Position numbers and translations under genes: made by a program. From Oscillospiraceae bacterium (GTDB taxonomy: Bacteria > Bacillota_A > Clostridia > Oscillospirales > Oscillospiraceae): a DNA stretch of 22,770 nt. The stretch covers positions 1 through 22,770 of the forward strand of contig JAFZOC010000089.1 of assembly GCA_017550765.1 (NCBI GenBank). The letters are read 5' to 3'. The notes below the pieces were generated by a model. That model was not told where the DNA came from, did not search any database, and was given only the letters and a program-made list of their open reading frames with translations. Every line of letters starts with the position of its first letter. Position 1 is the stretch's first letter. Of the stretch, positions 17,799-22,770 are shown one piece after another.

Positions 17799-19349
17799 AT
17801 GAATATCGAACTAAAGGGAAGGATCGACTCGAAGAACGCCGCCCAGGTGGAAAAAGAGCTCCTGGAGCAGCTGGCAGGCGGTGCCGACAGCCTCATCCTG
17901 GACGCTGCCGGCCTGGACTACATCTCCAGCGCCGGCCTGCGGGTGATCCTGCGCCTGCGGAAACAGCATCCCGATCTGCGCATCGTGAACGTCAGTTCCG
18001 AGGTCTATGAGATCTTCGACGTGACCGGCTTCACGGAGATGATGCCTGTGGAGAGGGCCTACCGCGTCGTCTCGATCGAGGGCTGTGAGGAGATCGGCCG
18101 CGGCGCCAACGGCAGGCTCTACCGCATCGACCAGGACAACGTGGTCAAGGTCTACAAGAACGCCGACGCCCTGGAGGATATCCAGCACGAGCGGGAGATG
18201 GCGAAACTGGCGCTGATCCTGGGGATCCCCACGGCGATCTCCTACGACGTGGTCCGGGTGGGCGAGAGCTACGGTTCGGTCTTCGAGCTGCTGAACGCCC
18301 GCTCCTTCGCCAAGATCCTGGCCCGGGAGCCGGAGAAGATGGACTGGTGCGTCCAGGAGTTCGTGGACATGCTCCGGAAGATCCACGCCACCCGGGTGCC
18401 CGCCGGGAAGCTGCCCGACATGCGCGAGACGGCTCTGGACTGGGCCCGCTTCATGCAGGACCATCTGCCCGAAGCGGCGGGGAAGAAGCTCCTGGCGCTG
18501 ATCAAGGCCGTGCCCCGCGATGACCACATGATCCACGGGGACTATCACACCAGGAACCTGGAGCTGCAGAACGACGAAGTGCTGCTGATCGACATGGACA
18601 CCCTGGCGGTGGGCCATCCGATCTTCGAGCTGGGGAGCATGTTCAACTCCTTCATCGGTTTTTCGGAGCTGCACCATGATGTGGTCAAGCAGTTCCAGGG
18701 CTTCGACTTTGAGACAAGCTGCAGCTTTTGGCGCAAGGCCCTGGCGGCCTACCTGGGTACGAACTGCGAGACCAAGATCCGGGAGGTGGAGGACAAGGCC
18801 CGGATCGTGGGCTATACCCGGCTGATCCGCCGGTCGATCCGCCGCTACGGGAAAGACGACCCCGCCCACGGCGAGGAGCAGCGCTTCTGGACGGCGCGGC
18901 TCCTGGAGCTGCTGGAGAAGACGGACACGCTGCTCTTCTCCCGGAACGAGCTGGAGATCGAGGCCACGGACGAAGCGCTGACGGAAGTCCAGCAGTTCGT
19001 GGAGGAACGCCTGGAGCCCACAGACTGTCCGGCCAAGGAGCAGATGCAGATCGGCGTGGCGGTGGAGGAGATCTTCATCAACATCGCCCACTATGCCTAT
19101 GCCCCAGACAAGGGCAAGGCCACGGTGCGCGTGGAGGTCTCGGAAGAGCCGGTCACCGTGACGATCACCTTCATCGACCGGGGCGTGCCCTACGATCCCC
19201 TGGCCTGGGAGGACCCGGACCTGAGCCTGCCCGCGGAAGAGCGGGATGTGGGCGGCCTGGGCGTGTTCATGACCAAGAAGCTCATGGACGACGTGAGCTA
19301 TCTCTACAAAGACGGGCAGAACATCCTGACGCTGAAGAAAGATCTGTGA
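17799..19349 (+). CDS. STAS - APH-type kinase - HATPase triple-domain fusion protein
   Basis: This 516-residue protein joins three domains. Residues 1-90 are a STAS anti-anti-sigma domain with the Ser site LDYISSAGLRVIL (S43/S44). Residues about 96-375 are an APH/choline-kinase-like phosphotransferase: GRGANGRLYRI (100-110), K117, E132, HGDYHTRN (246-253, catalytic D248, metal-binding N253) and LLIDMD (D265, D267). Residues about 380-516 are an RsbW/SpoIIAB-like HATPase: N-box EEIFINIAHYAY (E423, E424, N428), DRGVPYDP and GGLGVFMTK. The opposing partners of a switch (antagonist and anti-sigma kinase) are therefore in one chain, with a small-molecule or protein kinase between. All catalytic motifs are intact. 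No sigma factor gene is in view. Confidence 0.92.
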   Translation: MNIELKGRIDSKNAAQVEKELLEQLAGGADSLILDAAGLDYISSAGLRVILRLRKQHPDLRIVNVSSEVYEIFDVTGFTEMMPVERAYRVVSIEGCEEIGRGANGRLYRIDQDNVVKVYKNADALEDIQHEREMAKLALILGIPTAISYDVVRVGESYGSVFELLNARSFAKILAREPEKMDWCVQEFVDMLRKIHATRVPAGKLPDMRETALDWARFMQDHLPEAAGKKLLALIKAVPRDDHMIHGDYHTRNLELQNDEVLLIDMDTLAVGHPIFELGSMFNSFIGFSELHHDVVKQFQGFDFETSCSFWRKALAAYLGTNCETKIREVEDKARIVGYTRLIRRSIRRYGKDDPAHGEEQRFWTARLLELLEKTDTLLFSRNELEIEATDEALTEVQQFVEERLEPTDCPAKEQMQIGVAVEEIFINIAHYAYAPDKGKATVRVEVSEEPVTVTITFIDRGVPYDPLAWEDPDLSLPAEERDVGGLGVFMTKKLMDDVSYLYKDGQNILTLKKDL

Positions 19350-20673: not shown

Positions 20674-20735
20674 GCGCGACGGCCTTGAGCTCGCGCGGCA
20701 AAGGACGCAGGGAGCGCCGCAACGGCGGGACGAGG

Positions 20736-20782
20736 CGGCCCGGCGGAACGAGGCTGCGGGACGAACGGCCCGGCGGAACGAG
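20736..20782 (+). repeat. 17-nt direct repeat after the operon
   Basis: CGGCCCGGCGGAACGAG occurs at 20736-20752 and 20766-20782, amid further GGAACGA and GGGACGA fragments. It is low-complexity GC-rich DNA with no visible gene. Confidence 0.6.
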
Positions 20783-20819
20783 CCGATGGAACGATAGAGA
20801 CCGGCGGGATGCCCTCCCC

Positions 20820-20860
20820 AAAAAACTGCCCGACAAGGAGCGCTTGTCGGGCAGTTTTTT
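20820..20860 (+). terminator. strong bidirectional terminator of the STAS operon
   Basis: AAAAAACTGCCCGACAAG (20820-20837) pairs perfectly with CTTGTCGGGCAGTTTTTT (20843-20860), an 18-bp stem with a T6 run on either strand. Confidence 0.92.
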
Positions 20861-21045
20861 GCGTCTGTTGAGAAGCTCACGGCGCGCACATGGCTAGCAG
20901 AGATGGGCTTGCCCGAAGACCGGCGCACCGCGCAGATCCGGCAGCCGATCCGAGCACAGAGGTCGCGACTGGAATAGGAAAGAAAGGCAAGCGGGAAATG
21001 GTGTCGCCTAAATATGACAACATAGGCCAAGCCGCCAGATCATCC

Positions 21046-21075
21046 TTGCGAAAAGTGATCAGCTTCTGCTATAGT
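21046..21075 (+). promoter_or_regulatory. possible second promoter upstream of the guide RNA
   Basis: TTGCGA (21046-21051), 18-nt spacer, TATAGT (21070-21075). Transcription would run toward, and antisense through, the putative guide RNA gene. No convincing reading frame follows it. The stretch 20861-21045 holds nothing I can support. Confidence 0.4.
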
Positions 21076-21120
21076 GGTATGGGACGTGTCCGTTATCATC
21101 TGGCAACTGCACCACAAGAG

Positions 21121-21195
21121 CGAAGAAAAGAAATAAGCCGGGCAAGCCCGACTTACTTCCCAGAAACACTATTTCGACCCACGCATCGCTGCGAC
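21121..21195 (-). ncRNA. candidate crRNA-like cas-regulating RNA (mini-repeat, spacer-like guide, terminator)
   Basis: Read on the minus strand, 21195-21171 resembles a shortened type I-C repeat. It starts GTCGC, has a small stem CGCA/TGCG capped by GCGA, and ends TGGGTCGAAAT, close to the type I-C handle TGGATTGAAAT (recalled family consensus). The guide-like stretch AGTGTTTCTGGGAAGTAA (21170-21153) follows. A terminator then begins, TAAGTCGGGC (21155-21146) with GCCCGGCTTA (21143-21134) plus a T-rich tail. A promoter (21230-21202) would set the first base at the repeat. The guide matches 16 of 18 bases at 21268-21251 beside a TTC PAM, upstream of the cas3 -35 box. Inferred role: Cascade-guided repression of cas3. 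Confidence 0.75.
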
Positions 21196-21201
21196 ATATT
21201 G

Positions 21202-21230
21202 ATTATATCCATTTTTTCATGGATCGTAAA
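21202..21230 (-). promoter_or_regulatory. promoter of the candidate guide RNA
   Basis: On the minus strand: TTTACG (21230-21225), 17-nt spacer, perfect TATAAT (21207-21202). The expected start site, 6-7 bases further, is 21195, the first base of the repeat-like sequence. Confidence 0.8.
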
Positions 21231-21250
21231 GAGAGAAAATAGTTAAATCT

Positions 21251-21271
21251 TTACTTACCATAAACACTGAA
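21251..21271 (-). promoter_or_regulatory. candidate Cascade target with TTC PAM in the cas3 promoter region
   Basis: The minus strand reads TTC (21271-21269) then AGTGTTTATGGTAAGTAA (21268-21251). It matches the guide-like stretch at 21170-21153 except at positions 8 and 12; the first seven (seed) bases match. It ends nine bases upstream of the cas3 -35 box. Matching stops after 18 bases, as expected for binding without cleavage. Confidence 0.75.
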
Positions 21272-21279
21272 TGTTTTCG

Positions 21280-21309
21280 TTGACTTCCGCGCTGCCCCCG
21301 TGTTATAGT
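21280..21309 (+). promoter_or_regulatory. cas operon promoter
   Basis: TTGACT (21280-21285), 18-nt spacer, TATAGT (21304-21309). It gives a leader of about 100 bases before cas3. No short gene with a ribosome site is seen in that leader. Confidence 0.75.
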
Positions 21310-21415
21310 GTGGGCAACTAGAAAAACGAACTGGGCCCCGTGGATCTTTTTGCACAAATGATCATTGCCCGATCGATCGCAGCGCTCATACAGCGCTCAG
21401 AAAGGAACGAACGCG

Positions 21416-22770
21416 ATGGAAAGACCTTATCTCGCCCATAGCCCGACGGAACATACGCCCGAAGGGCAGCCGCTCAAACAGCATCTGGAAAACGTGGCTG
21501 CGCTGTGCGAGGCGTTCTGCAGACCCTTCGGCGCAGGAGCGCAGGGCCGGGCCTGCGGCCTCTATCACGATATCGGCAAATATTCCCAGGCTTTCCAGGC
21601 GCGCCTCTTTGGCGACACGCGCAAGGTAGATCACAGCACGGCGGGCGCATATGAGCTTTTCCGGCAGAGGGCCGTCCTTGCGGCCATGTGTGTCGCCGGT
21701 CATCACGGAGGCTTGACGGACAAGGGGACGCGCTTCGACCTCTCCGGCACCTTCTCGTCCCGGATCCTCCACGCCAAAGAGGGCGGTCTTGAGGACTACA
21801 GCGCCTGGACGCGTGAGATCCCGATGGTGTTCACGCCTGAGCGCAAAGATCTCAGTCCCCTGGAGGCTTTCTTCTACGTCAAGATGCTCTTCTCGGCACT
21901 GACGGATGCGGACTGGCTGGACACGGACGCGTACTACCGCAACGAGCCCTATCTCCTGCCCGAGACCGATCTGAGCGGACTGTGGGCGCGCCTGGAGCGG
22001 CATATCGCCAAGTGGTGGGGCGCGACGGAAGGGCTCAATGTCCTGCGCTGTGAGATCCTGCGCGCGGCGATCGACGCCGGCAGGGAAGATGCGGGGCTGT
22101 TCACCATGACGGTCCCGACGGGGGGCGGGAAGACGAACTCGTCCATGGCCTTTGCGCTCCGGCATGCGCTGGCGCACGGGATGCGGCGCATCATCTATGT
22201 CATCCCCTACTGCTCCATTTTGGACCAGACCCACTGCGTGTTCGCGGAGATCTTCGGCCGGGAGAACATCACGGCACATTACGGGGGCGCGGAATTCGCC
22301 CATCCGGAGAACGGGAGCGACCCTCGCAAGGAGGATACCAGGGCTTTCTCCGCCGAGAACTGGGAAGCGCCGATCATCCTGACCACGGCGGTCCAGTTCT
22401 TTGAGTCGCTCTACTCCAACAAGCCCGGCAAGTGCCGTAAGCTCCACAACATCGCCGGGAGCGTGATCGTCTTCGATGAAGCCCAGATGCTGCCGGTGCC
22501 TTTCCTGGAGCCTTGCCTCGCGGCGATCTGCCAGCTGATCGAGAACTACCGCTGCAGCGCGGTCCTCTGCACGGCGACACAGCCTGCGGTCGGCCAGACG
22601 CTGCAGGAGCTCGCGCCGGAGCTCCGCGTCCGAGAGCTGTGTCCGGAGCCGGAGAGGATGTACCAGGCATTCCGACGCGTGACGTATCGGGACGAGGGCG
22701 AGCTCGACGACGAAGCTCTCGCCGAGCGCCTCCGGGCCTGCAGACAGGTGCTCTGCGTCGTCAACAGCCG
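21416..22770 (+). CDS. cas3: CRISPR-associated helicase-nuclease Cas3 (type I-C like), 3' end outside the window
   Basis: The first 451 codons are open to the window end. The N-terminal HD nuclease shows H23 (KQHLENV), H51-D52 (LYHDIGKYSQAFQARL), H73 (VDHSTAGAYEL), the HH pair at 96-97 (AGHHGG) and TDAD (163-166). The helicase follows: Walker A PTGGGKT (234-240), VIPYCSILDQT, DEAQ box VFDEAQ (352-357) and TAT (386-388). Cas3 unwinds and degrades DNA marked by Cascade. The sequence style (HDIGKYSQAF, PTGGGKTNSS) and position as first gene fit subtype I-C. The start follows AAAGGAA. All visible catalytic residues are kept; the C-terminal part cannot be judged. Confidence 0.95.
   Translation, partial: MERPYLAHSPTEHTPEGQPLKQHLENVAALCEAFCRPFGAGAQGRACGLYHDIGKYSQAFQARLFGDTRKVDHSTAGAYELFRQRAVLAAMCVAGHHGGLTDKGTRFDLSGTFSSRILHAKEGGLEDYSAWTREIPMVFTPERKDLSPLEAFFYVKMLFSALTDADWLDTDAYYRNEPYLLPETDLSGLWARLERHIAKWWGATEGLNVLRCEILRAAIDAGREDAGLFTMTVPTGGGKTNSSMAFALRHALAHGMRRIIYVIPYCSILDQTHCVFAEIFGRENITAHYGGAEFAHPENGSDPRKEDTRAFSAENWEAPIILTTAVQFFESLYSNKPGKCRKLHNIAGSVIVFDEAQMLPVPFLEPCLAAICQLIENYRCSAVLCTATQPAVGQTLQELAPELRVRELCPEPERMYQAFRRVTYRDEGELDDEALAERLRACRQVLCVVNS

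Follow-up and report, generated by a model that had tools for sequence, protein, structure and literature searches.

The 22,770-nucleotide stretch of Oscillospiraceae bacterium DNA analysed here (the window) ends inside a cas3 gene, whose Pfam match to Cas3_HD and DEAD was obtained on a longer frame starting at 21365. Upstream of this gene, the consensus scan, the predicted fold and the letters themselves give a promoter-like pair, a repeat-like 25-mer, a guide and a hairpin in this order on the minus strand (Table 1). A leader of about 100 nt lies between the predicted cas3 promoter and cas3. An Rfam search of the window at gathering thresholds returned two tRNAs only.

The window also encodes one protein that matches STAS, APH phosphotransferase and HATPase_c_2, an unusual combination (17799-19349, plus strand). 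GC-rich direct repeats (20718-20794) are followed by a perfect 19-bp inverted repeat (20819-20861) that is probably the terminator after a DUF218 gene.

Table 1. Positions of the guide element, its target and cas3 in the window, and of guide units on prophage or phage DNA.
Feature	Position	Strand	Description
Guide RNA promoter-like pair	21230-21202	minus	TTTACG-17-TATAAT, consensus scan 10/12
Degenerate, shortened type I-C-like repeat, 25 nt	21195-21171	minus	GTCGCAGCGATGCGTGGGTCGAAAT
Guide, 18 nt	21170-21153	minus	AGTGTTTCTGGGAAGTAA; 16/18 to 21268-21251
13-bp hairpin with T-rich tail, probable terminator	arms 21158-21146 and 21143-21131	minus	fold; tail TTTCTTTTCTT
Target of the guide (protospacer seed region)	21268-21251	minus	AGTGTTTATGGTAAGTAA
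PAM	21271-21269	minus	TTC, adjoins the 5' side of the target
cas3 promoter-like pair	21280-21309	plus	TTGACT-18-TATAGT, consensus scan 10/12
cas3, 5' part of 451 codons, cut by the window's end	21416-22770	plus	Pfam Cas3_HD and DEAD; NCBIfam cas3_HD above cut-off
Prophage/phage guide unit	L305:6930-7060		repeat, guide, strong hairpin
Prophage/phage guide unit	L343, near 949-970	minus	repeat, guide, strong hairpin
Prophage/phage guide unit	L344:10590-10700		repeat, guide, strong hairpin

Guide and target upstream of cas3

At both ends, the repeat of the element still resembles a type I-C repeat; it is predicted to form a stem of about 4 bp, and its 3' end would become the 5' handle of the predicted guide RNA. 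Against three array repeats of relatives it matches 6, 6 and 5 of the first 6 nt, and 13 of the last 15 nt each time; at the level of sequence, it fits the relatives' array repeats. In arrays beside cas3 in relatives, the repeats mostly end in GTGGATTGAAAT or GTGGGTTGAAAT and some end in C. An array whose repeats read GTCGCA...TGCGTGGRTTGAAAT would suit the window's element. The Cas3 of the window falls in the clade of a near relative (L001; 8 tree rows, support 100) that encodes Cas5c, Cas8c and Cas7. Because the window ends inside cas3, without an array or effector gene, the subtype can only be inferred, and the Cas3 clade and the repeat point to type I-C.

Type I Cascade leaves every sixth base of a guide unread. 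The guide and target of the window match from the first base 3' of the repeat and stop matching after base 18, with mismatches at positions 8 and 12. Position 12 is unread and position 8 is read, and the latter mismatch counts against the regulatory role that we favor. No other TTC-flanked site in the window agrees with the guide at 8 or more of the 10 read seed bases, and a type I-C system is reported to use TTC as its PAM (PMC8406640). The preliminary description had placed the 25-mer, the guide, the 16-of-18 target and the TTC at these coordinates, and each was confirmed by checking the letters. Its claim that the target adjoins the cas3 promoter likewise agrees with the consensus scan, in which the predicted cas3 -35 box lies 8 bp away from the TTC.

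The target sits between two divergent -35 boxes, one at 21230-21225 for the guide and one at 21280-21285 for cas3, and so would a protospacer of the full 34 bases (21235-21268). This placement, the guide's promoter-like pair and the hairpin are additions to the preliminary description. The hairpin overlaps the end of the guide and takes the place of a second flanking repeat, which is absent from the letters and the fold after the window's guide. A strict terminator scan, which needs 5 T within the 8 bases that directly follow the stem, found none in 20800-21500, and this missing terminator counts against our interpretation.

To score such arrangements, matches to the repeat handle (of 12) and between guide and target (of 18) were summed, with TTC required. 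The window scores 27. This value was never attained in 40,000 Markov resamples of its 640-base region, where the maximum was 25, seen once. The earlier judgement that repeat, match and PAM would rarely coincide by chance is upheld by this result.

Guide and target pairs among Cas3 relatives

A scan of genome contigs with the Cas3 fragment gave 66 loci, and further genome searches brought the total to 237. With the window included, 236 sources matched Cas3; 15 were dropped for a cut or short upstream region, and the remaining 221 were merged, where near-identical, into 190 distinct cas3 upstream regions. A score of at least 25 is reached by 12 of these 190 (the window, L010, L024, L031, L038, L075, L196, L208, L211, L212, L219 and L220) versus none of 5,700 resampled regions (top 24, once). 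The guides differ among the 12 regions, and a type I-C Cas5 is encoded in the locus of all 11 positive relatives. When the PAM was varied over the same 190 regions, TTC gave 12 hits, AAA, AAT, GGG, TAT, TCC and TGC one each, and the remaining 57 triplets none. The six non-TTC hits score 25-27, and both they and the small share of positive regions (12 of 190) count against the proposed role.

In 11 of the 12 regions, all but L010, target and cas3 are on opposite strands and the PAM side of the target faces cas3. Promoter-like pairs of at least 10/12 begin 2-8 bp past the PAM in the window, L024, L031, L038 and L075, and a weaker pair (8/12) is found in L220. No promoter-like pair above 7/12 lies by the target in L208, L211, L212 and L219, whose guides are on the plus strand, and the target of L196 adjoins the start of its own guide; both observations count against control of cas3 by the guide. 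A hairpin of at least 9 bp follows soon after the guide start in 12 of 12 regions, and at least 4 T occur in the 8 bases past the hairpin in 7 of 12; among 4,000 control stretches, 2.5% have a hairpin as strong. Upstream of cas3 in L211 (about 1220-1490), the target precedes a small helix-turn-helix-like frame that could be a regulator or toxin-like cargo; its kin L209 has neither guide unit nor frame.

Several look-alikes were set aside. L099 scores 24 and lies among array repeats, L213 scores 23, and both, like L121, fall under the counting level. An array spacer of L051 (about 16272) fits its own cas3 promoter, with TTC, at 13 of 15 read positions and one of L133 fits its own at 12 of 15; both fits arose among 732 guides in 130 regions, could be due to chance and were not counted. 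Searches of viral contigs with the Cas3 query gave no relatives, and three viral contigs matching the window's guide pattern proved to be one same sequence lacking a good repeat, a chance match. The upstream region (20800-21420) had no match in phage records, and plasmid records held Cas3 relatives of less than 60% identity only.

On a Cas3 tree of 188 rows (2 of the 190 sequences were too short), the 12 positives require 11 changes, at least 9 of them forced by well-supported branches. The positives are not clustered, as 96 of 500 shuffles gave values as low, and the element seems to come and go in evolution. L010, L024, L031 and L038 belong to Bacillota, and L196, L208, L211, L212, L219 and L220 to Actinomycetota, in the order of an Atopobiaceae genome. 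The seven Cas3 relatives nearest to the window (L001-L006 and L059; 62-66% identity) have no pair at the counting level; this and the scattered placement on the tree count against the proposed role.

Mismatch period and joint changes of guide and target

The 12 pairs hold 38 mismatches at positions 1-18, and 24 of these fall at positions 6, 12 and 18 (7, 10 and 7 of the 12 pairs, respectively). None of 200,000 permutations that preserve each pair's mismatch number in 1-11 and in 12-18 reaches 24 at these positions, the best attaining 19. Without the window, the observed 23 is likewise reached by none of 200,000, the best permutation giving 17. Past base 18, the match between guide and target is near chance level. 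The six-base period indicates that the pairs are read by Cascade rather than being a plain DNA repeat. For one type I-B CreA, altering base 6 or 12 did no harm, in contrast to alterations at each of the ten remaining positions up to base 12 (PMC8501985). Killing by a type I-C system needs 27 bp of pairing (PMC8406640), so that about 18 paired positions are consistent with binding without cutting.

The preliminary description had raised the prospect of guide and target covarying in relatives, and this holds in part. The closest relatives of the window lack the pair; elsewhere, sequences differ yet stay matched, and position 7 shifts jointly near Megasphaera. L031 and L032 have identical guides, and their targets differ within the 18 bases only at the unread position 6. 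The locus L126 (genome G540), a near relative of Megasphaera sp. NM10 (L024), retains the cas3 target, altered at positions 7 and 12, and has no guide beside cas3. As expected beforehand, G540 carries two guides in trans with the new base 7 of the target, found in a search that covered 2,078,942 of 2,478,942 contig bases. One guide unit (L264) lies near a CRISPR array and has mismatches at 6 and 12; the other (L305) lies among phage genes, with neighbors that match holin and endolysin families, and has mismatches at 6, 12 and 18. Both match 10 of 10 read seed bases.

The G540 bases searched contain two TTC-flanked sites with at least 9 of 10 read seed bases, namely the cas3 promoter and the leader of the L264 array. 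The L264 guide unit stands in this array leader, and a second copy of the target lies between unit and array, before a promoter-like pair read by eye (L264:1480-1960). Array transcription, and not cas3 alone, may be under the control of the L264 guide.

The IMG/VR contigs L343 and L344 carry the prophage form of the Megasphaera-type guide unit. Guide base 7 is A in L343, as in the L024 target, and G in L305 and L344, as in the G540 target. L344 and L305 are probably one prophage because their listed proteins agree. The phage-borne unit is likely a cas repressor.

Proposed mechanism and related systems

We conclude that the element very probably represses a cas operon, likely of type I-C, in the manner of CreR, with one repeat, a terminal hairpin and a guide that would park the cell's own Cascade at the cas3 promoter. 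The predicted guide RNA likely keeps the cas genes turned down. It would be transcribed from its promoter-like pair, trimmed by Cas5 at the handle and loaded into the cell's own, likely type I-C, Cascade. The complex would then sit at the TTC-flanked site before the cas3 -35 box via about 18 paired positions, too few for Cas3 cutting, and could hinder RNA polymerase at this box and perhaps also at the guide's divergent promoter. The cas genes would be expressed more strongly once Cascade is taken up by crRNAs or anti-CRISPRs, as described for CreR (PMC12737573, PMC13131331). We infer loading into type I-C Cascade, cas3 repression and the sensing of free Cascade. The cas-regulating guide RNA first suggested for this locus is supported by the ordered promoter-like pair, handle, guide and hairpin as well as by the matched guide and target pairs in relatives.

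The same design is found in CreA RNAs, one of which has a single repeat and a terminator (PMC8501985), and the element could be the CreA antitoxin of a CreTA- or CrePA-like addiction module, silencing a small toxin at the target promoter with cas3 as a mere neighbor. In L211, a small open frame stands between the target and cas3, and in the window a 27-codon frame from 21359, read by eye, overlaps the cas3 start. However, the promoter-like pair by the window's target leads straight into cas3 with no terminator listed in the leader, and such a pair stands close before cas3 in L024, L031, L038 and L075 too. No plus-strand gene of at least 60 codons lies between the promoter-like pair and cas3, which leaves room for a small toxin RNA, and we consider an addiction module improbable.

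The patchy distribution and the absence of the element from the nearest relatives would also suit a remnant of a self-derived spacer or of an array end, without a present role. This is harder to reconcile with a promoter-like pair, guide and hairpin that are all in place, with read positions that stay matched across 12 loci while unread ones do not, and with the joint change at position 7 near Megasphaera, and we think it quite improbable. As for a chance meeting of a repeat-like 25-mer with an unrelated 18-base near-repeat, upstream regions often hold repeat-like 12-mers (9/12) without a good target, but the resampling of the window, the 12 of 190 regions versus 0 of 5,700, the TTC control and the six-base period make this explanation barely credible.

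CreR RNAs typically take a two-repeat mini-CRISPR form, whereas the repressor proposed here, probably of type I-C, has one repeat followed by a hairpin and no second repeat. Cas-regulating RNAs of the CreR kind are named for types I-B, I-E and V-A in one source (PMC13131331) and for type I and V-A in another (PMC12737573). The element resembles them as a crRNA-like RNA beside cas genes with a limited, PAM-flanked match to a cas promoter, and in a proposed autorepression that is lifted when crRNAs or anti-CRISPRs occupy the effector (PMC12737573, PMC13131331). With CreA of the Haloarcula hispanica CreTA system it shares one degenerate repeat, a short guide, a terminator and a TTC PAM, as well as pairing at positions 1-5 and 7-11 with positions 6 and 12 free; CreA is archaeal, of type I-B and silences an RNA toxin, whereas the window's promoter leads to cas3 (PMC8501985). 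The element would act like a CreR RNA and has one repeat and a probable terminator, a form otherwise met in a haloarchaeal CreA.

In the Racr RNA anti-CRISPRs of phages, RacrIC1 included, type I-C-like repeats stand alone on phage DNA, as they do in L305, L343 and L344, but Racr RNAs are described as repeat mimics, whereas the units found here carry a guide to the cas3 promoter (PMC10651486). We rejected a Racr-type mimic without a working guide for the window's element, as its guide fits the cas3 promoter region.

In type II-A systems, the natural short guide tracr-L turns Cas9 on its own cas promoter; it differs from the element in being tracrRNA-derived and in acting through Cas9, with no Cascade. 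Shmakov et al. 2023 (NAR 51:8150) reportedly describe standalone repeats with spacers that partly match cas promoters, covering type I widely, and are said to propose that phage mini-arrays lower effector expression. Our literature searches, whose reach did not extend to Shmakov et al. 2023 or the original CreR report, found no paper on a type I-C CreR; given the reportedly wide coverage of type I by the former, a type I-C case may already be in print.

Beyond the window, we are evenly divided on the broader proposition that one-repeat guides have repeatedly made type I-C Cascade repress its own operon, in at least two bacterial phyla, with a guide near Megasphaera that fits both the cas3 promoter and the array leader, and prophages with host-matched copies. 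If true, guide-RNA control of cas genes reaches type I-C in a compact one-repeat design that would escape array finders. The six-base mismatch period could serve as a sequence-only fingerprint of Cascade-read regulation in searches for further switches of this kind. Judging from the copies on phage DNA, phages may make use of the switch too, and a phage could then shut both immune arms using its host's own Cascade.
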